From an uncultured Lachnospiraceae bacterium (GTDB lineage: Bacteria > Bacillota > Clostridia > Lachnospirales > Lachnospiraceae), in contig CAMOZY010000021.1 in NCBI GenBank assembly GCA_946631295.1, positions 1 to 37,195 of the forward strand: a stretch of DNA of 37,195 nucleotides, given 5' to 3'. Positions 22,943 through 33,929 of the stretch are shown here, one piece after another. Numbering within the stretch: the first letter of the stretch is position 1; the number at the start of each line of letters is the position of its first letter. The notes below the pieces were generated by a model, which saw only the letters and a program-made list of their open reading frames with translations, did not search any database and was not told where the DNA came from. A program made the position numbers and the translations under genes.

Positions 22943-24115
22943 ATGTATTATTCCAGTGTTGGAATGATATCATTGATAATACATGCAATCATCAATTTTG
23001 AGGCGATGAGAAGACTTCGCGGAAGTAATGTTACTCCCGTCAGGTTGAGATACCGTGCATTTCTTATCAGCTGTATGCTTTACTATGTCACGGATATAGT
23101 ATGGGGATTTACATATGAATCCCGCATCCGTTTCTGGGTATTTGCCGATACTACGCTGTATTTTCTTGCAATCAGCCTGTCTCTTTTGTTATGGATGAGA
23201 TTTATAGTTACATATCTCAATAGAAAGACATTATTTAACCAGTTGCTGAAATATATGGGCGGGGGTATTTTTCTGATCCAGGCGTTAGTTCTGGTGATCA
23301 ACCCCTTTGTTCCTGTGATGTTCAGATTTGATAATGAGGGAGAATATCTTCCCGGCAAGGCAAGATATATAATCCTGACAGTGCAGATCATTCTTTTCAT
23401 AATCATCTCCTTATATACTCTGGTAAGTGCGGCAGATAAAAAGATAACTCATAAGGAGCGGCTTCACCTTATGGCAACAGGCCTTTCGGGGCTGATAATG
23501 TCCATATTCATCATACTTCAGACCTTCTATCCGTTTATGCCGTTCTATGCGCTGGGACTTCTTATTGCGGTATGTATCATTCATACCTACGTTCTGATGG
23601 ATCAGAAATTTGACTGGGACATGGAACTTGGCCTTGCAAGGGAGATGGCATATATCGATCCTCTTACAGGCGTAAAGAGCAGGACTGCATTTATCGAAAA
23701 GAAGACTTTTGTAAACAGACAGATCGGCGACAATGTAATGGAAGATTTCGGAATCGTTGTTTTTGATCTGAACGATCTGAAAAAAGTAAACGATACAAAG
23801 GGACATGATGCCGGTGACAAATATATAAAGGAAGCAAGTCATCTGATCTGCGATACATTCAAGCACAGTCCCATATACCGCGTCGGCGGAGATGAATTCG
23901 TGGCTTTTCTCGAGGGCGAAGATTTTAATAACAGAACCGAACTCATGAATTCATTTAACAGTATGATGGAAGATAACCTAAGAGATGATAATGTTGTTAT
24001 TTCTGCCGGAATAGACATTTATATTCATGATAAAGATACTGTATTTGATAATGTGTTCGGAAGAGCCGATACCGCAATGTATGAGCGCAAGAAGCAGTTG
24101 AAAGAATCAAAATGA
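22943..24115 (+). CDS. Membrane diguanylate cyclase (GGDEF)
   Basis: A 390-residue protein with about seven membrane helices (residues 1-225) and a C-terminal GGDEF domain (about 230-388). The active-site motif is intact (G315-G-D-E-F319), as are DPLTG, the FDLNDLKKVND metal/substrate motif and the closing ADTAMYERK. It should make c-di-GMP from GTP. The inhibitory I-site RxxD is absent (F and S at those positions), so product feedback is unlikely. The membrane part has the loop FRFDNEGEYLPGKARY between helices, shared in outline with the next protein, and may sense an extracellular signal. SD GAGGGG. Lies 35 nt after the GH43 lipoprotein gene and overlaps the next gene by 4 nt. Confidence 0.92.
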   Translation: MYYSSVGMISLIIHAIINFEAMRRLRGSNVTPVRLRYRAFLISCMLYYVTDIVWGFTYESRIRFWVFADTTLYFLAISLSLLLWMRFIVTYLNRKTLFNQLLKYMGGGIFLIQALVLVINPFVPVMFRFDNEGEYLPGKARYIILTVQIILFIIISLYTLVSAADKKITHKERLHLMATGLSGLIMSIFIILQTFYPFMPFYALGLLIAVCIIHTYVLMDQKFDWDMELGLAREMAYIDPLTGVKSRTAFIEKKTFVNRQIGDNVMEDFGIVVFDLNDLKKVNDTKGHDAGDKYIKEASHLICDTFKHSPIYRVGGDEFVAFLEGEDFNNRTELMNSFNSMMEDNLRDDNVVISAGIDIYIHDKDTVFDNVFGRADTAMYERKKQLKESK

Positions 24116-25272
24116 CGCAGGCTGAATACGGAATTTTATATTTTGGACTGAATGCTCTGTCGTTTATCATTATCTGGATAATCCTTCAAAAGACTAACGG
24201 ATTGTCCAAGATGGTGGCACAGAGAAATTTTGCCATGTCCATAGTTGCCGAGATGATCTTTATCGCATCCGATACGATATATGTCATGGCACATAACGGG
24301 GTGATCTATCTCGGATTTCTTGACAGATATGTCAGGCTGATGTGTAAAGAGGTATATTTCTTCTCCACATCGATGATGTGTTTTTTCTGGTTCATATATT
24401 TCGAATATATGAGAGATACGGATTTCGTCAAGGAGAAGAAAAAGGTAAACTATGCCTCACTGATAATGTGGGCAATGGGCCTTCTCCTTGTGATCAATCT
24501 TTTCAACGGATTTTTATTCTATATTGACGGTGACGGCGTTTATCACAGAGGACAGTTTTTTATCCTGACATATATTCTTTCGTATTCTTACGTTATCATC
24601 GCATATATAAGGACTATCTGCGGAATGCTTGATAAGTCATATACCGGAGATAAGCATACCCTTGTACTTTTGATAGTATTCCCGGCAGCTCCGGGACTTG
24701 CCGGTATTATTCAGTTTGTTTATCCGAGGATTCCTGTGGCGTGCGCAATGCTCGCCATTACGACCCTTCTTCTGTATCTGAACTGGATAGATCAGCTGAT
24801 ATCTCTGGATCCTCTTACAGGACTGAATAATCGTAAGCAGCTCGGACATTTCTATAATAACTGGATGAAAAATCATAACGAAGGTGATACTATCAATGTC
24901 CTTATGATCGATGCCAATAAATTCAAATCGATCAATGATACATACGGACATGTACAGGGAGACAAGGCTCTTAAGAATATTGCCGAGTCACTTAAACTCG
25001 GGTGCAGGGTGCTGCCTAAAAGAGCAAATATTGCAAGATACGGCGGAGATGAATTTGCGATACTTTACGAATCCTCAAATCCTGAGGATGCGGATCACTT
25101 AAGAAAAAGTATCACAGAACAGCTTATAGAGATAAACGAGCGTACAAAGGTACCGTTTGAACTTACTGTAAGTATAGGTGCAGCTTCTTCCGATGGGGAG
25201 CTTTCACTTAAGGAACTGATCGATAAAGCTGATGAAGCGATGTATGAAGAAAAAGAAGCTTCAAGAAAATAA
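24112..25272 (+). CDS. Second membrane diguanylate cyclase (GGDEF), paralogue of the first
   Basis: A 386-residue protein with the same layout as its neighbour: about seven membrane helices (to about residue 220) and a GGDEF domain with DPLTGLNNR, IDANKFKSINDTYGH, intact G311-G-D-E-F315 and ADEAMYEEK. Again no I-site (P and A where R and D would be). The loop FYIDGDGVYHRGQFF corresponds to the FRFDNEGEYLPG loop of the first protein, supporting tandem duplication. Translation is coupled by an ATGA overlap. Having two feedback-free cyclases with related sensors behind a xylan-type surface enzyme suggests c-di-GMP signalling tied to contact with plant fibre, which is inference. The operon ends at the terminator 25323-25376. 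Confidence 0.92.
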   Translation: MTQAEYGILYFGLNALSFIIIWIILQKTNGLSKMVAQRNFAMSIVAEMIFIASDTIYVMAHNGVIYLGFLDRYVRLMCKEVYFFSTSMMCFFWFIYFEYMRDTDFVKEKKKVNYASLIMWAMGLLLVINLFNGFLFYIDGDGVYHRGQFFILTYILSYSYVIIAYIRTICGMLDKSYTGDKHTLVLLIVFPAAPGLAGIIQFVYPRIPVACAMLAITTLLLYLNWIDQLISLDPLTGLNNRKQLGHFYNNWMKNHNEGDTINVLMIDANKFKSINDTYGHVQGDKALKNIAESLKLGCRVLPKRANIARYGGDEFAILYESSNPEDADHLRKSITEQLIEINERTKVPFELTVSIGAASSDGELSLKELIDKADEAMYEEKEASRK

Positions 25273-25322
25273 TCAGATTAAACAATAAGTTGAAGCAATA
25301 TAGCAATAATACGGATGTTTGA

Positions 25323-25376
25323 AACACGGACTGTATGATAAAATACAATCCGTGTTTTTATTTTTTTTTTTTTTTT
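25323..25376 (+). terminator. Terminator with a 16-T tract
   Basis: AACACGGACTGTAT (25323-25336) and ATACAATCCGTGTT (25343-25356) form a 14-position stem with one mismatch, followed by TTTTT-A and sixteen T (25361-25376). The loop region contains TATGATAAAAT, which resembles a -10 box and could start transcription of the following ABC gene. Confidence 0.9.
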
Positions 25377-25407
25377 GGAAGATAAAACGTTTTTCGGAGG
25401 ACTGGTT

Positions 25408-27699
25408 TTGAAGAACGATAAGATTTTAAACAAAACAGAAATTGAAAAGCTGTCGGAACTCGGGATAGAAGAGTCCGATATAATGCTCAAAAGTTCTATT
25501 GATCTTTCTTTTGATGGTGAATACATCGAAGGTTTTGTTTTTGTGACAAAGGACAGGCTGGGAGTCTGTACAAAGGAACTTTCTGACAGTTATGTCAACA
25601 TTTTCAGCGGTGTGAAGCTTAAAGATAAGGAGACTCTTCCTGTAAGTGATTCACTGATCAGTGATATCGCTCTTTATAATATTTCGGAACTTGCCCATCT
25701 TCGTCTGGACAGCTATATAGGTTCGAATGTCCTGACCGGCGAATATGAGGGGAAGCCGGTGAAGATTGCTGCATTTACCAACAGATATTCATCTGACATG
25801 AATGTTCTTTATCGGAAACTCAGAGCATACGTAAAAGGTGGAGAAATCCCTCAAGAAGATGCAGAGGGTACTTCAGAAAATGAAACTGAAGAAAGCGGTA
25901 AGAAAAACAAACGATCTATTTTTGCCAGGACTCTCAGATATTTCCTCAGATATAAGCTTCAGATAATAGTGCTGTTCATGACATATGCAATATCAGCTGT
26001 AGTGGGTGTCGCATGGCCTTATCTGACAGGTAAGGTTCTCTTTGACCATGTTCTTACAATGGATGATACATTTCTTGCTAAGTACGGACTCGACGGAAAA
26101 TATACACTTGCTCTTCTGATGGTGGCAATCACTATGATAGGCGTCCGTCTGATACAGGCTATGTCGAATTACATGCAGGTCTTTGTAATGGCGAAGGTTG
26201 CAAGTGATACCGTCAGGGATATCAAGACAGATGTATTTAATGCGATGAGTAAACTGTCGCTGAATTTCTTCGTCAACAAGCAGACAGGCGGACTTATGAC
26301 AAGAGTCTTAAGCGATTCGGAGAGAGTAAGGGAATTTTTTATAGACGGAATCCCGATGATATTTGTACACGGTATAACGATAATTGCAACGTTTACCGTA
26401 ATGTACAGACTTAACTGGAAGATGGCTCTCATCGCATGCATACTTCTTCCTCTTCTTGTATTTATGACTGTTAAGCTCCGTCCCGGCCTCTGGACTCTGT
26501 CCGGCAAGAGACACCGTGCAGAGAAGGCTGTTACGGCAAAGGCCAATGATAATCTCACGGGAGCACGCGTCGTTAAGGCATTCGGACAGCAGGATACCGA
26601 GATGAAGAAGTTCATGCATCCAAGTAATAATCTTCGTGATGCAGAGATCAATATCGTAAAACTTCGTAACAGGTTCTCGATACTTTACAATCTTGTTCAG
26701 GAGGTTTCGAGTATATGGATCTGGCTCGTTGGTGTATATTTCGTCCTCGGAACAAAAGAGATAGAACTCGGTGTGCTGATCACCTTCGTAGGATATGTAA
26801 TGCAGCTGAACGGGCCAATGAATTTCTTCTCATGGGTGTTCAGAATGTGGTCTGAAAGTATCAACTCTGCAGAGAGATTGTTTGAGATCATCGATGCGAT
26901 TCCCGAGATAAGAGAGAAGGAAGATCCTGTAAGGCTTGAACACCCACGCGGTGAGATAGAACTTAAGGATGTGACGTTCGGATACAGAACGGGACGCCCG
27001 GTACTTAAGAATATCAACCTTAAGATCAGGGAAGGAGAGATGCTCGGTATAGTAGGAAGATCCGGTGCCGGAAAATCTACACTGGTCAATCTGATTTCAA
27101 GACTCTATGACGTTAACGAGGGTTCAATCAGCATAGACGGAACTGACGTTAAGGATCTTGCTCTGAAGGACCTGAGAAGAAATGTTGCGATGGTTTCTCA
27201 GGATACATACATTTTCATGGGAACAGTAGCTAAGAACATAGCATACGGCAATGAATCGGCTACGCGTGAAGATATCATCAGGGCAGCCAAACTTGCAAGT
27301 GCGCATGAATTCATTTCCAAACTTCCCGATGGTTACGACACCATAATAGGGGCTTCGGGTAAGGATCTGTCAGGTGGAGAGAAGCAGAGGATATCCATAG
27401 CAAGGGCGATACTTGCAGATCCCAAGATACTGATACTGGACGAAGCAACAGCAAGTGTGGATACCGAAACCGAGAAGGCAATACAGTATTCGCTCAGATT
27501 CCTTGTACAGGGAAGAACCACTCTTTCTATCGCACACAGACTCTCGACACTTCACGATGCTGACAGATTGATAGTAATAGACGGCGGAAGGATCGTTGAG
27601 GAAGGAACAGAGGAAGAACTGAATAAAGTGGAAAACGGAATCTTCCATAATCTGCTCGAACTCCAGAACAAATCATTATCACTTGGTTCAGGGTTCTGA
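25408..27699 (+). CDS. ABC exporter half-transporter with N-terminal PH-like domain (DUF1854-associated)
   Basis: A 763-residue type IV ABC exporter half. Residues 1 to about 140 are an extra soluble domain (strands around EGFVFVTKDRLGVC...LAHLRLD...KIAAFTNR) that resembles the N-terminal domain of the second ABC protein. An acidic linker leads to six membrane helices (about 175-485), then the nucleotide-binding domain: Walker A GRSGAGKST (about 550), signature LSGGEKQR (about 654), Walker B ILILDEATASVD and switch IAHRLSTL. All catalytic motifs are intact. The start is a TTG at 25408 with GGAGG 7 nt upstream; a further in-frame TTG at 25375 lies in the T-tract and has no SD. It forms an operon with DUF1854, a second ABC half and a membrane protein. 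Substrate unknown. Confidence 0.88.
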   Translation: MKNDKILNKTEIEKLSELGIEESDIMLKSSIDLSFDGEYIEGFVFVTKDRLGVCTKELSDSYVNIFSGVKLKDKETLPVSDSLISDIALYNISELAHLRLDSYIGSNVLTGEYEGKPVKIAAFTNRYSSDMNVLYRKLRAYVKGGEIPQEDAEGTSENETEESGKKNKRSIFARTLRYFLRYKLQIIVLFMTYAISAVVGVAWPYLTGKVLFDHVLTMDDTFLAKYGLDGKYTLALLMVAITMIGVRLIQAMSNYMQVFVMAKVASDTVRDIKTDVFNAMSKLSLNFFVNKQTGGLMTRVLSDSERVREFFIDGIPMIFVHGITIIATFTVMYRLNWKMALIACILLPLLVFMTVKLRPGLWTLSGKRHRAEKAVTAKANDNLTGARVVKAFGQQDTEMKKFMHPSNNLRDAEINIVKLRNRFSILYNLVQEVSSIWIWLVGVYFVLGTKEIELGVLITFVGYVMQLNGPMNFFSWVFRMWSESINSAERLFEIIDAIPEIREKEDPVRLEHPRGEIELKDVTFGYRTGRPVLKNINLKIREGEMLGIVGRSGAGKSTLVNLISRLYDVNEGSISIDGTDVKDLALKDLRRNVAMVSQDTYIFMGTVAKNIAYGNESATREDIIRAAKLASAHEFISKLPDGYDTIIGASGKDLSGGEKQRISIARAILADPKILILDEATASVDTETEKAIQYSLRFLVQGRTTLSIAHRLSTLHDADRLIVIDGGRIVEEGTEEELNKVENGIFHNLLELQNKSLSLGSGF

Positions 27700-27765
27700 T
27701 GTTGAAAAGAGACTGCTGAATCTGTGTATTGTAGTATACGTGATAACTACAGATAAGGAGATAAC

Positions 27766-28302
27766 ATGGCTGAAAATACTCTTAACATATATGAGAAAAA
27801 AGCTGAAGAGATGACCCGTGTCACGTTCATCACTGCGAAGGATGTCTTTGCACAGACAGATGGAGGATTTCTGAGTCTTGATGCGAACGGTGTTCATTAT
27901 GACAGGGTAAAGGTTGTCAGACTTTTTCCTTTTTCGGACGCGAACAGGTATCTGTCAATCAGGGAATATGGAAATGAAGGCAGGGAGATAGGAATCATCG
28001 AGGATCTGGATGCTATGCCCGAAGATTCGAAGAAGGCTATAGAACATCAGCTGACGCTCAGCTATTTTACACCTGTCATCAGTAAGATCTACAGCATCAA
28101 GGATGAATACGGATATGCATATTTTCATGTCATGACCGATAAGGGTGAATGCAGGTTCGCAATCAATATGGGATCCAATGCTGTATCAAAACTCTCTGAT
28201 ACCCGTCTCATAATAATGGATGTTGATGAGAACAGATTCGAGATAAGGGATGTTGAGGTTCTCACACAAAAGGAAAAGAGAATGCTGGATATGTTCCTGT
28301 AA
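27766..28302 (+). CDS. DUF1854 domain protein
   Basis: A 178-residue soluble protein matching, from memory, the DUF1854 family: VRLFPFSD, then a REIG-x-I-EDLDAMPEDSKKAIEHQL segment, FTPVI-x-KI, and the C-terminal DTRLIIMDVDENRFEIRD...KRMLDMFL. In proteobacteria DUF1854 proteins sit next to an ABC transporter annotated as linked to cyanophycin metabolism; no cyanophycin gene is in this window. No enzyme motif is visible; it may be a cytosolic adaptor or regulator of the flanking ABC halves. SD AAGGAG; a short inverted repeat TGTAGT/ACTACA lies just upstream of it. The second ABC half starts 14 nt downstream. Confidence 0.8.
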   Translation: MAENTLNIYEKKAEEMTRVTFITAKDVFAQTDGGFLSLDANGVHYDRVKVVRLFPFSDANRYLSIREYGNEGREIGIIEDLDAMPEDSKKAIEHQLTLSYFTPVISKIYSIKDEYGYAYFHVMTDKGECRFAINMGSNAVSKLSDTRLIIMDVDENRFEIRDVEVLTQKEKRMLDMFL

Positions 28303-28316
28303 TGGAGCGGTGAATC

Positions 28317-30482
28317 ATGATATTACGTTACGATATTCCACAGACAATAAAAAATAAGATTGCACTTCCCGGTGATGAGAAGATATATTATGCCGTTCCT
28401 TATGATATAGATGAGAATGGTAAGTGGACCGATAATTCTTATCTTGTTGTTACAACGTCAAGGATATATGTATTCTCCGGAGAAGAAGTAAGAAAAGATA
28501 TTGCCATAAGTGATCTTGAACAGGCTAAGGCTGAACCCGGTGTCGGAGGCGGTATCCTTACTGTTAAGAGTCATGGAGAAAACAGAGTCCTCGCACATTA
28601 TTCTTCAAGGCATCTGAGCAGGTATGCTTATATTGCAAGAGGTATCAACATCCTGATATCCGGAAGATTTGAAGAAGTCATAAGCAATGAATATGAGAAA
28701 GTGTGTCCTCATTGCGGACGTGTGATCCCCGGTACCAAGACATGTCCGAAGTGTTCCGGAGAAGGACGGTTTCTTGGTGTATTCTTAAAAATGGCAAGTC
28801 CATATAAGAAGCAGTTTTTCGGGATATTCTTCCTGATGATCATGGCTGCCGTTACGACTCTTCTTAATCCTGAAGTGCAGAAGCATCTGATCAACAATGT
28901 CCTCAAAGATGGCGGAGATATGCAGACTGCATTCGGTTTTCTTGGGCTGATGTTCCTGCTGAGTGTCGGAATAGTCATTGTTAACATCATGAAGAGCAAT
29001 GCTTCGGCAAGACTCGGTTCGAGAATCGCATCAGACTTAAGAGGTCAGCTGTTTGAAAAATATCAGAAGCTTCCGCTTAGCTTTATCAATGACAGAAGAC
29101 CGGGTGAGCTTCTTAACAGGATAACACAGGATACCAGATATATCAGCGATTTCATGGCAGATGTATTCTGTAATCTTTTTGCAGTGTTTTTCATATTTAT
29201 ATGGGATATCATATTCATGCTGATCATCAATACCAAACTTGCACTGATCAGTTTTATCCTGGTTCCGGTTGTCAGTGCGGTGATGATTTCTTTCAGGAAA
29301 ACCATAAGCAGAATCTTCCATCTGCAATACAAGAAGAACGATGATGTATCAAGTGATCTGCAGGATGTCATTTCCGGAATGAGAGTAGTTAAAACCTACG
29401 GCAAGGAAGAGGATGAATCGAACAGATTCAAGCGGGTTGCAGGAGATTTCGCTCTTATCCAGAAGAGGAATGAGCGATTCTGGGCAATGTTCGATTTTAT
29501 AGTATCATTCCTGATGGGACTCGGCATCGTTATAGTCGTATATTTCGGCGGACTTGATGTGTTCAGTGGAAGTATGTCGGCCGGTGAACTTTATCAGTTC
29601 ATAACATATACACTTCTTCTTTTCCAGTATGTCGGATGGCTTGGAAGGCTTCCCAGAGAAATCTCCAGACTAACCAGTTCTCTTGAACGTATCTACGATA
29701 TTCTGGCTCAGGATGTGGACGAAGAAAGAAAAGATCTTAAGGAATTCGACATAAAGGGTGAGATAACATTCGATCATGCAACCTTCGGATACAAGTCATA
29801 TCAGCCTGTACTTGAGGATATCAATGCTGTTATCAAGCCCGGCGAGATGATCGGTATTGTAGGTGCATCCGGAACGGGTAAATCCACCCTTATCAATCTG
29901 CTCATGAGACTGTATGAGACCGATGACGGACGCATCCTGGTAGATGGAACCGATATGAAGGATATCAGCAGAAAATCCTATCATTCACAGCTCGGAGTTG
30001 TGCTTCAGGAGACGTTCCTTTTCTCCGGTACTATCATCGATAATATTAAATTCTCCAAGCCTGATGCTACGATTGAAGAGATAATAAAGGCTGCAAAGCT
30101 TGCAAATGCACACGACTTCATCACAAAGCTTCCCGACGGGTATAATACATATGTCGGTGAAAAGGGATATACTCTTTCAGGCGGCGAGCGTCAGAGGATA
30201 GCGATAGCAAGAGCGATACTTCCTAATCCCAATATCCTGATCCTTGATGAAGCTACAGCAAGCCTTGATACTGAGAATGAGTTCATGATCCAGAAGGCGC
30301 TTGAAAGACTTACAAAGGGTAAGACGACCTTTGCGATAGCGCACAGGCTCTCAACTCTTAAAAATGCAGACAGGATCATGGTAATAGACGGACACCATAT
30401 CGCAGAGATCGGTACTCATGCCGAACTGCTTGAGAGAAAGGGAATCTATTACAATCTCTACAACGCACAGATACAGACTTAA
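28317..30482 (+). CDS. ABC exporter half-transporter with PH-like domain and zinc ribbon (DUF1854-associated)
   Basis: A 721-residue ABC exporter half. Residues 1 to about 125 form a PH-like domain (YLVVTTSRIYVFSG...DLEQAKAE...HYSSRHLSRYAYIARGIN). A zinc ribbon follows: C130-x2-C133-x9-C143-x2-C146 (CPHCG...CPKC). Membrane helices lie at about 160-440 and the nucleotide-binding domain has Walker A GASGTGKST, signature LSGGERQR, Walker B ILILDEATASLD and IAHRLSTL. With the partner at 25408 it should form a heterodimer with two consensus ATP sites. The soluble N-terminal modules on both halves, facing the cytosol, are unusual for drug or peptide exporters and suggest regulation or docking, perhaps of the DUF1854 protein encoded between them. 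Confidence 0.88.
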   Translation: MILRYDIPQTIKNKIALPGDEKIYYAVPYDIDENGKWTDNSYLVVTTSRIYVFSGEEVRKDIAISDLEQAKAEPGVGGGILTVKSHGENRVLAHYSSRHLSRYAYIARGINILISGRFEEVISNEYEKVCPHCGRVIPGTKTCPKCSGEGRFLGVFLKMASPYKKQFFGIFFLMIMAAVTTLLNPEVQKHLINNVLKDGGDMQTAFGFLGLMFLLSVGIVIVNIMKSNASARLGSRIASDLRGQLFEKYQKLPLSFINDRRPGELLNRITQDTRYISDFMADVFCNLFAVFFIFIWDIIFMLIINTKLALISFILVPVVSAVMISFRKTISRIFHLQYKKNDDVSSDLQDVISGMRVVKTYGKEEDESNRFKRVAGDFALIQKRNERFWAMFDFIVSFLMGLGIVIVVYFGGLDVFSGSMSAGELYQFITYTLLLFQYVGWLGRLPREISRLTSSLERIYDILAQDVDEERKDLKEFDIKGEITFDHATFGYKSYQPVLEDINAVIKPGEMIGIVGASGTGKSTLINLLMRLYETDDGRILVDGTDMKDISRKSYHSQLGVVLQETFLFSGTIIDNIKFSKPDATIEEIIKAAKLANAHDFITKLPDGYNTYVGEKGYTLSGGERQRIAIARAILPNPNILILDEATASLDTENEFMIQKALERLTKGKTTFAIAHRLSTLKNADRIMVIDGHHIAEIGTHAELLERKGIYYNLYNAQIQT

Positions 30483-30560
30483 GCAGGTAAATGCCGGAGA
30501 AGTGACAGACATATCCGGGATTTCGTCCTTTGATAACTGATCCGGACAGTGGAGAAAATT

Positions 30561-31208
30561 ATGGATATAAAAGATGTGGAATTAATTGAAGATACGGTCA
30601 GTGAGAAGAAAAATGATAAGCTTCCGCTGAGTGTGAAAGCACCTATGTTCCTCAGTGTACTGTTCTATGGGATTGCCGTCGGTTTCGGTTATATGGTTGT
30701 GGATAGCCATAAGACTATAATCGAAAGGTTCACCAATCTCGTATATAATGAGGAGCCATTCCCTTATTCGCTGAAATTCATGATCATATATCTTTTCGTC
30801 TATATTCTATTTATGATCCTGATGCTTATTGCAAAGAGTTATTCAAGGAAGCGTGTGGGAAGACTTTTGCTTGGACTGTACTGTCTTATAAACTGTTTCG
30901 TCCCAGTGGTCGACAGGATCGTTATTTTCGATGCATATAAGCACAATTATTTTTACACTGCAGCTGTATGTGAACTTGATGCGCTTATCACCTTATCAAC
31001 CAATATTTTTACCGTGATCAGTACAATGTTCATGCTTGTCGCGATAGGAAGATTCGGAATGTGTAATGTGAAGAAAGATGAATCGGGTGATGAAGACGGA
31101 TATGATAAGTCTGTAAGAAAAACCGGATTCGAAAGGTCAGATGACAAAGAAGAGAAAGTGATCTTCGGAGATAATGAAGACGACAACGGCGGTTTTGTGA
31201 AGTATTAA
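30561..31208 (+). CDS. Membrane protein at the end of the DUF1854-ABC operon
   Basis: A 215-residue protein I do not recognise. A short acidic N-terminus is followed by about four membrane helices (about residues 28-45, 70-92, 105-120, 140-165) and an acidic, Lys-containing cytoplasmic tail of about 45 residues. The ATG at 30561 has GGAG 6 nt upstream; a GTG four codons earlier is a poorer choice because it would precede the SD. It lies 78 nt after the second ABC gene and before the terminator at 31247, so it probably belongs to the same transcript and may be an accessory subunit. Confidence 0.7.
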   Translation: MDIKDVELIEDTVSEKKNDKLPLSVKAPMFLSVLFYGIAVGFGYMVVDSHKTIIERFTNLVYNEEPFPYSLKFMIIYLFVYILFMILMLIAKSYSRKRVGRLLLGLYCLINCFVPVVDRIVIFDAYKHNYFYTAAVCELDALITLSTNIFTVISTMFMLVAIGRFGMCNVKKDESGDEDGYDKSVRKTGFERSDDKEEKVIFGDNEDDNGGFVKY

Positions 31209-31246
31209 TTTCAAAGATAACTCGAACATTTCCGGTAGTAAGAACG

Positions 31247-31276
31247 GACCCTCTGCGTATGGCAGAGGGTCTTTTG
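31247..31276 (+). terminator. Terminator of the DUF1854-ABC operon
   Basis: GACCCTCTGC (31247-31256), loop GTATG, GCAGAGGGTC (31262-31271), then TTTTG. Confidence 0.9.
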
Positions 31277-31358: not shown

Positions 31359-31458
31359 CGCATCATAAAGAACATGAAAGTGTCAGATATGCTGCTGATG
31401 ACCGATGATTGCCGATCATAAGATGGAAACCGGGCATATCAAAAAAGGAGGATGGAAG

Positions 31459-32304
31459 ATGATAAGCTGCAGAAATCTGTATAAAAGCTTTTCGGATAAG
31501 ACTGTTCTATCGGGAATAAACTTCAGCATAGAGGATGGTGAGATATTTGGTCTGCTCGGACCTTCCGGAGCAGGCAAGACAACACTTATTAATATAATCA
31601 CAGGACAGCTGCCTTTTGATAAAGGCTATGTCTGTGTGCTTGATAAGAATGTTAAGGAACTTACAGGAGAAGACAGTAAGAAGATCGGGATCATGATGGA
31701 CAGCTTCGGAGTGTATGAGAGATTCTCGTGTGCGGATAATCTGAAGATCTTCGCTGATATTTACGGTGTATCACATGACAGGATAATACAGACTCTTGAA
31801 GCGGTGGGCCTTAAAGATGCGGCAGGAAAGCCTGCGTCAGATCTTTCAAAAGGAATGAGAGCACGGCTTCAGCTGGCAAGAGTCTTCATGCATTCTCCGA
31901 AAATAATCTTTCTCGATGAACCTACAAGCGGACTTGATCCTCAGACAATGAAACAGATTCACCACCTGATCCTTGATAAGAAGAAGGAAGGCTGTACGAT
32001 CTTTCTTACTACTCACAACATGGAGGAAGCAACGGCACTCTGTGATAAAGTGGCACTTTTAAACGAAGGGGTGATAGTAGAGTGCGGAGCCCCCAAAGAG
32101 GTAGTCAGAAAGTATAACCATCAGAAGAAAATAAAGCTTCACCTTGTGACAGGCGAGGATGTAGAACTTCCCCACGATGAAGGCTCAGCTGAAAGAATAT
32201 TCAGCCTTATGATTGAGAAAAAAGTAGAGACCATTCATTCATCGGAGCCTGATCTGGAAACGGTATTTCTTGAACTGACAGGCAGAAAACTAGAGGAGGC
32301 ATAA
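31459..32304 (+). CDS. ABC-2 type transporter ATP-binding protein
   Basis: A 281-residue cytoplasmic ATPase that drives the permease encoded next. Walker A is GPSGAGKTT (34-42), the signature is the variant LSKGMRARLQ, and Walker B is IIFLDEPTSGLD followed by the His switch TTHNMEEA. The last ~70 residues form the small C-terminal domain common to antibiotic/lantibiotic efflux ATPases (DrrA/CcmA group). I placed the start at 31459 because GGAGG (31447-31451) lies 7 nt upstream; an ATG further upstream has no SD. First gene of a four-gene operon with permease, LytTR regulator and DUF3021 protein. Confidence 0.93.
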   Translation: MISCRNLYKSFSDKTVLSGINFSIEDGEIFGLLGPSGAGKTTLINIITGQLPFDKGYVCVLDKNVKELTGEDSKKIGIMMDSFGVYERFSCADNLKIFADIYGVSHDRIIQTLEAVGLKDAAGKPASDLSKGMRARLQLARVFMHSPKIIFLDEPTSGLDPQTMKQIHHLILDKKKEGCTIFLTTHNMEEATALCDKVALLNEGVIVECGAPKEVVRKYNHQKKIKLHLVTGEDVELPHDEGSAERIFSLMIEKKVETIHSSEPDLETVFLELTGRKLEEA

Positions 32305-32306
32305 AT

Positions 32307-32990
32307 ATGGATAATGTATCTGTGATCATAAAAAAGCAGATAAGGGATACTTTTAAGAATAAAACTGTGCTGATCCAATTTGTGATGTTTCCCGCCATGA
32401 CTCTGATAATGGAAAATGCAATTAAGATGGATGGGATGCCTGTGAACTTTTTTACGAAGCTTTTCTCGGTTATGTATATAGGTATGGCTCCTCTTACTTC
32501 AGCAGCGGCCATCATATCCGAGGAAAAAGAAAAGAATACCCTTAGAGTACTGCTTATGGCTAATGTCAAACCGTGGGAATACCTGCTCGGAATATCTGTA
32601 TATGTATGGACGCTATGCATGCTGGGGGCTGCCGTTATGGCTACAGGTCTTCCTGCCTCGGATATCCCTTTCTATATGATGACTATGGGACTTGGATTCA
32701 TTATTTCGATACTTGCAGGAGCATGCGTGGGGATTTACGCAAAAAATCAGATGGTTTCGACATCACTTGTCATGCCGGTAATGATGGTTTTATCTTTTGC
32801 TCCCATGCTTGCCATGTTTAATGATAAAATAGAAAAAGTGGCGAGATTCTTCTATACCCAGCAGATCAGAGTGGTCTTCAATACCATGAGTTTTGACGGG
32901 GTGGGTGGAAAAGGCCTGCTGATCATTGCTGTAAATGCATGTCTTGCACTCGGACTGTTTTTCGTCACTTTTCGAAAGAACAGGTTATAG
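32307..32990 (+). CDS. ABC-2 type transporter permease
   Basis: A 227-residue membrane protein with about six helices: one near the N-terminus (about 22-40), then a periplasmic-type gap and helices at about 55-72, 98-118, 125-148, 155-175 and 205-222. The segment EEKEKNTLRVLLMANVKPWEYLLG is the conserved cytoplasmic coupling motif of ABC-2 permeases (E-x-E-x-x-T-L-x-x-L). SD GGAGG precedes by 8 nt, 2 nt after the ATPase gene. Probably exports a peptide or drug or protects against one; substrate unknown. Confidence 0.9.
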   Translation: MDNVSVIIKKQIRDTFKNKTVLIQFVMFPAMTLIMENAIKMDGMPVNFFTKLFSVMYIGMAPLTSAAAIISEEKEKNTLRVLLMANVKPWEYLLGISVYVWTLCMLGAAVMATGLPASDIPFYMMTMGLGFIISILAGACVGIYAKNQMVSTSLVMPVMMVLSFAPMLAMFNDKIEKVARFFYTQQIRVVFNTMSFDGVGGKGLLIIAVNACLALGLFFVTFRKNRL

Positions 32991-33012
32991 ATATGGGTAA
33001 GGACCTGAACAG

Positions 33013-33453
33013 ATGAAGATAGAGATCGACATAAATGAAAAATATACAGAAACCGGTGTGAAGATATGTGCCCCTGCCCTGTCGAAGGATGTTGAAAATG
33101 TCATTGCTATGATGCGCATGATCAATATGCAGATAGGCGTTAAGAAGGGTGATGAGACATACCTGCTCGATGCGGACAGGATCCTTTATATCGAAGCGGT
33201 AGACCGTAAGACATTCGTTTATACGGAAGACGAGACTTTCGAATCCGAACTGAAACTTTATGAGATGGAACAGGAACTATTAAAGAGAGATTTCCTCAGA
33301 ATCAGCAAGCAGTCTATTGTAAACCTCCGTAAGATAAAAAGTCTGAAGGCGGATATAAACAGGAAGCTGAGGGTTACACTTCAGAACGGGGAACAGATAG
33401 TTGTATCACGTATGTACTCCGATGAACTCCGCAGAAAGCTGGGATTGAGATAA
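33013..33453 (+). CDS. LytTR-domain transcriptional regulator
   Basis: A 146-residue stand-alone DNA-binding protein. The LytTR domain covers about residues 42-146: YLLDADRILYIEAVDRKTFVYT, then FLRISKQSIVNLRKIKSLKADINRKLRVTLQNGEQIVVSRMYSDELRRKL. There is no receiver domain, as in LytTR regulatory systems where a membrane partner holds the regulator inactive. The next gene, a DUF3021 membrane protein, overlaps it by one base (TAATG). The likely target is the direct repeat at 31283-31324 in front of its own operon. Confidence 0.93.
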   Translation: MKIEIDINEKYTETGVKICAPALSKDVENVIAMMRMINMQIGVKKGDETYLLDADRILYIEAVDRKTFVYTEDETFESELKLYEMEQELLKRDFLRISKQSIVNLRKIKSLKADINRKLRVTLQNGEQIVVSRMYSDELRRKLGLR

Positions 33454-33929
33454 TGGAAGAAAAAAGAACCATATTCAGTTATATAGGCCAGGCGCTGGCA
33501 ACATACGGTGCGATCGTTGTTATATTCATAGTTTTCAGCCTGATACTTGATGAGGATACAGGAAAGTTCTCAACACTTTTCGAACTCGGAAACAAAGGTC
33601 TTACGCTCGGAACTCTCATACAGCTGCTGGCTCTCGCAGTGATAGTTACGGCTGCTCAGGTTGTTTTCCTTACGGATACTATGCTTAAGAATCTGTCAAT
33701 CGTTATGAGAAATGTACTGTTCTTTTCAGTGATACTTATTGCGATGGTAATATTTGCATGTGTGTTCGGATGGTTTCCCATTGATGATCCGAGAGCCTGG
33801 ATCGGTTTCGGAGTTTCGTTTGGTCTGAGCATGGCAGCGAGCATATTCATTACAAGGTTCGTTGAAAAGGCTGAAAATGACAGTCTTCAGGCTGCACTGG
33901 AGAAATATAACAGATCCGGTAAAAAATAA
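33453..33929 (+). CDS. DUF3021 membrane protein, probable inhibitor partner of the LytTR regulator
   Basis: A 158-residue protein with four membrane helices (about residues 12-32, 50-72, 84-104, 115-135) and a short charged C-terminal tail, matching the DUF3021 layout. Pairs of LytTR protein and four-helix membrane protein, such as HdrR/HdrM and BrsR/BrsM of Streptococcus mutans, form regulatory systems in which the membrane protein antagonises the regulator. The 1-nt TAATG overlap supports tight coupling. Assignment rests on topology and neighbourhood. Confidence 0.85.
   Translation: MEEKRTIFSYIGQALATYGAIVVIFIVFSLILDEDTGKFSTLFELGNKGLTLGTLIQLLALAVIVTAAQVVFLTDTMLKNLSIVMRNVLFFSVILIAMVIFACVFGWFPIDDPRAWIGFGVSFGLSMAASIFITRFVEKAENDSLQAALEKYNRSGKK

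Follow-up and report, generated by a model that had tools for sequence, protein, structure and literature searches.

INTRODUCTION

Type IV ATP-binding cassette (ABC) exporters include pairs of two different half-transporters, such as TM287/288 and TmrAB, in which one ATP site is regarded as degenerate in the portions of PMC7756269 and PMC5216877 available to us. The only functional label attached to DUF1854 proteins comes from the names of two NCBIfam models, NF052233 for an ABC protein and NF052234 for its DUF1854 partner, which link both to cyanophycin. Here, we describe an ABC-DUF1854-ABC module in an uncultured Lachnospiraceae bacterium. It lies in a window of 37,195 nt, the whole of contig CAMOZY010000021.1, which is contig 21 of the 95-contig, 2.54-Mb, ~91% complete assembly GCA_946631295.1. 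On the + strand, the genes are ordered ABC1, DUF1854, ABC2, and a gene for a 219-aa hydrophobic protein.

Like the NF052233/NF052234 system, the locus has an N-terminal domain spanned by the profile and a DUF1854 partner, but it has two ABC halves, scores below the cut-offs, and no cyanophycin synthetase over the cut-off. Two different half-transporters are also found in TM287/288 and TmrAB, which are sequence relatives by phmmer; unlike in those systems, both ATP sites are canonical here, and pleckstrin homology (PH)-like and zinc ribbon domains and DUF1854 are added. The PH-like domain of the window differs from known bacterial PH domains (PF08000 structures 3dcx and 3hsa; bPH_3) in being joined to a ribbon and an ABC half. 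The best functional precedent that we found is enterocin DD14, for which the PH-domain proteins DdE and DdF are needed in an export process with a part for the ABC transporter DdHIJ as well; these are separate, PHb2-type proteins, and the part of PMC8657885 consulted mentions neither a ribbon nor DUF1854. The literature searched contained no paper on DUF1854 and no description of the module. An ABC exporter family in which a PH domain is built in and one ATPase has its own third subunit is not known to us, and none appeared among the papers listed by these searches.

RESULTS

The triad is conserved as a unit

An original prediction, made from the sequence of the window alone, had proposed the order ABC-DUF1854-ABC, and Pfam matches for all three genes confirmed it (Table 1). 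The DUF1854 protein scored 131.1 bits against PF08909, for which the gathering cut-off is 26.8, and each ABC half contained ABC_membrane, ABC_tran, and the motifs of the nucleotide-binding domain (NBD), the signature of a type IV ABC exporter.

DUF1854 was detected in 20 of 398 genomes in a phylum sample and 28 of 299 in a family sample, with the window's genome included in each. From these, 55 loci were collected (26 from other positive genomes of the phylum sample, 28 from the family sample, and the window). The triad was present in 43 of them, with ABC genes on both sides of DUF1854 in 42 and ABC1 fused to DUF1854 in one more; the remaining 12 were 11 loci with a single upstream ABC gene only and one fragment. 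A second set comprised 80 clostridial loci kept out of at least 474 relatives, five loci being common to both sets. All three genes were found in 74 of the 80, and the other 6 were cut by contig ends. These 74 consisted of 65 plain triads (among them L165, in which ABC1 is split, and some loci where a contig end truncates an ABC gene), 7 fusions, and 2 odd arrangements (ABC1 overlapping in L137 and displaced by ~1.5 kb in L174).

The genes were closely spaced. Among 108 triads, with fusions left out and L078 (in which DUF1854 itself is split into two pieces) counted twice, the gap between ABC1 and DUF1854 was ≤100 nt in 101 (median, 20 nt) and that between DUF1854 and ABC2 was ≤100 nt in 100; the window has gaps of 66 and 14 nt, respectively. 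Six of the 20 positive genomes of the phylum sample (G012, G040, G054, G093, G127, and G264; loci L057-L060, L066, L068, L070, L071, and L073-L076) hold modules of both types, with two ABC genes and with one, so these types are probably not interchangeable.

When ranked by DUF1854, the nearest named relatives belong to the Lachnospiraceae, and the titles of many of them point to the rumen. Genome G493 contains two different complete triads (L100 and L106). Sulfolobus acidocaldarius was the sole carrier of DUF1854 among 14 control genomes. Outside Bacillota, a single ABC gene with DUF1854 was also observed on a plasmid of Gemmatirosa kalamazoonensis (L225); this ABC protein has an N-terminal extension and no zinc ribbon.

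PH-like domain and predicted zinc ribbon

The N-terminal domains of ABC1 and ABC2, which had been predicted to be mutually similar, proved homologous by hhalign (E = 7e-21 over 118 columns), pairwise BLAST giving a weak match (E = 0.002). The ABC2 domain is PH-like, with a seven-strand sandwich followed by a C-terminal helix. Pfam bPH_3 matched 18 of 61 relatives (best E, 2.3e-4), and the window sequence gave no match at E 0.1.

The 299 family genomes were then surveyed at E 1e-4 with an ABC2-type profile built from Lachnospiraceae. The domain was detected in 27 of the 28 genomes with DUF1854 versus 0 of the 271 without it (Fisher p = 1.5e-37, uncorrected for kinship). Conservation of the N-terminal domain with DUF1854 neighbours, on which the original prediction had staked its reading, was thus observed. 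The sole DUF1854 genome without a match, G558, carries the single-ABC type, whose N-terminal domain was missed by the profile, so the co-occurrence speaks for the ABC2 type only. A further, partial match was found elsewhere in G494, on a separate contig; this genome, too, carries DUF1854. The window's own genome contains the ABC2-type domain once. The ABC2 core gave 26 matches there, of which the remaining full-size ones lie in shorter frames of ~580 to 650 aa.

In ABC2, a C2-C2 ribbon occupies residues 130 to 146, and its four cysteines were invariant in 61 sequences. The C2-C2 pattern was found in all 113 ABC2 sequences (five loci counted twice) and, under stricter spacing, in 42 of 43. A ribbon had been predicted in one half, and this holds for the ABC2 of the window, its ABC1 having no CxxC pair. 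However, the ribbon does not mark one half: it was present in 9 of 9 single-ABC relatives (and absent from one Gemmatirosa copy), in 32 of 41 ABC1 sequences in one count, in 31 of 62 full-length unfused ABC1 copies in another, and in 5 of 7 fusions. The ancestral state predicted from these sequences is the same in both halves: a PH-like domain, then a C2-C2 ribbon that runs on into the first membrane helix. The ribbon was lost from ABC1 in the clade of the window. In addition, ABC1 lacks any N-terminal domain in L105 and L109 and has just a 75-aa low-complexity lead in L098; in these three loci, ABC1 begins where the frame before it stops, and DUF1854 and a complete ABC2 are still there. The ABC1 domain is thus eroding in several lineages, with the ABC2 domain being kept.

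These results bear on the possibility that the locus encodes an ordinary multidrug exporter, in which the N-terminal domains and DUF1854 merely aid folding or assembly. The best-scoring solved relatives by phmmer include P-glycoprotein, Sav1866, TM287/288, TmrAB, and BmrA; there is no conserved biosynthetic neighbour; and the spread is patchy in the family and in the genus, where DUF1854 occurs in 16 of 31 genomes, many assemblies being incomplete. However, ordinary exporters manage without such parts, as the DUF1854-free genomes illustrate, and retention of the ABC2 ribbon in every sequence examined suggests a specific job. We regard this explanation as unlikely.

Proposed association of DUF1854 with ABC1

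In seven loci (L158, L159, L160, L161, L163, L164, and L169), all from one Lachnospiraceae group, the C-terminus of ABC1 runs into DUF1854 in intact frames of 940 to 974 aa; the same joint occurs in L165, where the ABC1 frame is split. A 1024-aa ABC1-DUF1854 frame was also found in G264, from another family of the same phylum, and this and the Lachnospiraceae fusions are likely two independent events. Every fusion joins the C-terminus of ABC1 to DUF1854, and no ABC2-DUF1854 fusion was seen among the loci. This restriction to ABC1 is an argument for placing the action of DUF1854 at the ABC1 ATPase. We infer that DUF1854 is a dedicated third subunit, seated where the ATPase domain of ABC1 ends on its C-terminal side. 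It may be a double beta-alpha module, a diverged pair of PH/polo-box type.

ABC1 and ABC2 as probable partners

In a FastTree phylogeny of 75 sequences covering the membrane and ATPase parts, ABC1 and ABC2 were each monophyletic with support of 1.0. The 9 single-ABC proteins formed no clade, and the root is uncertain because the 10 outgroup exporters were grouped at support of just 0.49. ABC1 and ABC2 probably arose by one old duplication of a single-subunit ABC protein that already worked with DUF1854.

Partial distance correlations were calculated for 39 non-redundant triads. The two transmembrane domains (TMD1 and TMD2) were correlated at 0.57 (interval, 0.39 to 0.67) and the two NBDs at 0.44 (0.25 to 0.55); these links were robust, as expected of a heterodimer. 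DUF1854 tracked TMD1 best, weakly (0.41; 0.06 to 0.58). Monophyly and distance correlations together suggest that ABC1 and ABC2 form a heterodimer. The catalytic Glu of Walker B was present in 110 of 110 ABC1 and 110 of 113 ABC2 sequences, the other three giving no motif match. The mark of a degenerate site, one half without the catalytic Glu or the signature, was not found, and both halves in the window are canonical.

Relation to cyanophycin

Among NCBIfam models, NF052233 scored best with each of the two ABC halves, covering the N-terminal domain from positions 30 and 24, with scores of 525.6 and 520.0 bits against a curated cut-off of 880. The DUF1854 protein scored 89.8 bits against NF052234, below the cut-off of 150, and three single-ABC relatives from Bacillota reached 640 to 646 bits on NF052233, still less than 880. 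The names of these matching models would make the unit a cyanophycin-linked transporter, for example one moving Asp-Arg dipeptides. In sludge bacteria, Group 1 cphA clusters include an unclassified ABC transporter next to two copies of cphA, according to the part of PMC10687191 available to us; this transporter may be the single-ABC relative. However, no cyanophycin synthetase (CphA; TIGR02068) exceeded the cut-off in the window's own genome (best, 79 bits; ~91% complete), which bears out the original prediction that the link is absent here, and CphA was over the cut-off in none of the 28 family-sample genomes that have DUF1854. In the phylum sample, it was found in 1 of 20 genomes with DUF1854 versus 117 of 378 others (Fisher p = 0.011, uncorrected for kinship). 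With all scores below cut-off and CphA rarer alongside DUF1854, a cyanophycin-linked role is disfavoured in the Bacillota sampled, and we consider it very improbable.

Layout of the locus and neighbouring genes

The unit is bounded by terminators, as had been predicted (Table 1). TTG is preferred as the start of ABC1 because it is preceded by GGAGG and the resulting 763 aa match the open reading frame length of the same-genus homologue L095. The mechanical open reading frame start at 25375 was rejected, as it falls where the T-run of the upstream terminator ends.

TABLE 1 Features of the locus and its surroundings (positions in the window)
Feature	Position	Strand	Remarks
Two tandem GGDEF proteins (PF00990)	22943..25272		Upstream of the module
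Terminator of the GGDEF pair, upstream border	25321..25376	+	Stem 25321-25358, then T-run; dG -18.6 kcal/mol, z -5.9
ABC1, 763 aa	25408..27699	+	N-terminal domain, ABC_membrane, ABC_tran; TTG start, GGAGG at 25396-25400
ABC1 N-terminal domain (borders approximate)	25456..25854	+	Homologous to ABC2 domain; no ribbon
ABC1 transmembrane domain PF00664	25963..26820	+	E 7.2e-39
ABC1 nucleotide-binding domain PF00005	27004..27453	+	E 1.1e-36
DUF1854 protein, 178 aa	27766..28302	+	Domain 27898-28296; PF08909 E 2.9e-38
ABC2, 721 aa	28317..30482	+	PH-like domain, C2-C2 ribbon, ABC_membrane, ABC_tran
ABC2 PH-like domain	28383..28658	+	Seven strands and C-terminal helix
ABC2 zinc ribbon, C130-x2-C133-x9-C143-x2-C146	28704..28754	+	Predicted from Cys pattern
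ABC2 transmembrane domain PF00664	28818..29630	+	E 1.3e-42
ABC2 nucleotide-binding domain PF00005	29811..30260	+	E 1.5e-34
219-aa hydrophobic protein	30549..31208	+	Four apparent membrane segments (by eye); outside conserved module
Intrinsic terminator, downstream border	31246..31272	+	dG -22.2, z -5.4
ABC-2 type ATPase and permease, then LytTR regulator and membrane protein	31405..33929		Apparent separate operon

The 219-aa protein had been counted as a four-helix membrane protein of the module, and this was not upheld. BLAST detected no homologue in 54 other module loci (E 1e-5) or in the 80 clostridial loci (E 1e-4). Matches were found in 10 of 31 genomes of the genus, the window's own included, and the five other homologues inspected (L205-L209), which are ~24 to 28% identical, sit in another context. 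The protein may share the transcript of the triad. L205-L209 adjoin a gene resembling a helix-turn-helix regulator; four of the five also have a lipoprotein-like gene alongside (labels assigned by eye). A strong terminator separates the upstream GGDEF genes from the module, and GGDEF genes were not recognised among the recurring neighbour clusters of module loci.

DISCUSSION

We think it probable that the locus encodes a type IV ABC exporter that is an obligate heterodimer, with DUF1854 as a third subunit and a cytosolic control layer. ABC1 and ABC2 would pair and use ATP at two competent sites, and the PH/ribbon domain of ABC2, next to the first membrane helix, would form the control layer together with DUF1854 at the ABC1 ATPase. 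This layer would sense cargo or a signal and license ATP-driven outward transport. It would do so in much the same manner as the MlaB, CBS, or TOBE-type add-ons of other ABC systems, whose targets are the ATPases. In the original prediction, the module was a regulated exporter or a flippase with a cytosolic adaptor; its architecture stands, whereas lipid or peptide export or flipping, and regulation by the N-terminal domain or DUF1854, are putative, being read from sequence. A structural study of bacterial PH domains proposes, as far as the excerpt goes, that those of the PF08000 family bind proteins and not membranes (PMC2817789); this would suit a PH-like domain in contact with DUF1854, with the ATPases, or with a cargo that is itself a protein.

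The leading guess for the cargo would be an amphipathic, cell-made peptide or a lipid-like molecule. One specific form of the proposed exporter, with its chances included in those of the exporter, would be a peptide exporter akin to leaderless-bacteriocin systems that need PH-domain proteins. Export of enterocin DD14 is blocked by deletion of DdE or DdF with the ABC genes still expressed (PMC8657885, in the part consulted), and here the PH-like domain is built into the ABC protein itself. However, no conserved small-peptide gene was seen beside the module, open reading frames under 60 to 80 aa not having been searched. We hold this specific form to be rather unlikely; the enterocin DD14 precedent, as described in that part, makes a peptide or lipid-like cargo plausible at most.

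Several points weigh against a DUF1854-controlled exporter. Diverged N-terminal domains may exist without DUF1854, the profile being ABC2-type and blind to that of G558, and the three ABC1 proteins lacking the domain indicate that one half can do without it. DUF1854 is placed on the grounds of the fusions, the order of the genes, and a rate signal that is weak, and its structure model is moderate (pLDDT 80, pTM 0.50), with no clear match to solved folds. In an earlier, redundant set of 95 triads, DUF1854 was best correlated with NBD2 (0.39), a value that was 0.01 in the 39 non-redundant triads; as its best partner changed on removal of redundancy, this signal is fragile. Coupling between the two N-terminal domains showed the same kind of drop, from 0.37 to 0.02. 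Among the 25 largest neighbour clusters, none held a gene family with a constant position next to the module. Finally, exporter-fold ABC proteins can import: mycobacterial IrtAB takes up iron-loaded siderophores through a type IV exporter fold (PMC10246721, in the part available). An importer of this kind would use the N-terminal cytosolic domain to handle the incoming ligand. The lack of a recurrent neighbour counts against an importer too. PH-like and ribbon domains are also atypical as enzymes, and we judge an importer to be improbable.

Returning to the proposed exporter, the unit belongs to a known kind, the ABC exporters, and its accessory set is constant but unexplained. More tentatively, it could represent a widespread, undescribed class of cytosol-gated ABC exporters, in which the PH-like domain and ribbon read a ligand or cargo and DUF1854 couples this reading to the ABC1 ATPase; we consider this possible but doubtful. 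For these bacteria, the cyanophycin label of DUF1854 is a poor description. From the survey, DUF1854 gains a likely place at the end of the ABC1 ATPase, a constant partner in the PH/ribbon N-terminal domain, and a likely route through duplication of a single-ABC ancestor, and its role thereby becomes directly testable. If true, the mechanism would add a new mode of control for exporter-type ABC proteins.

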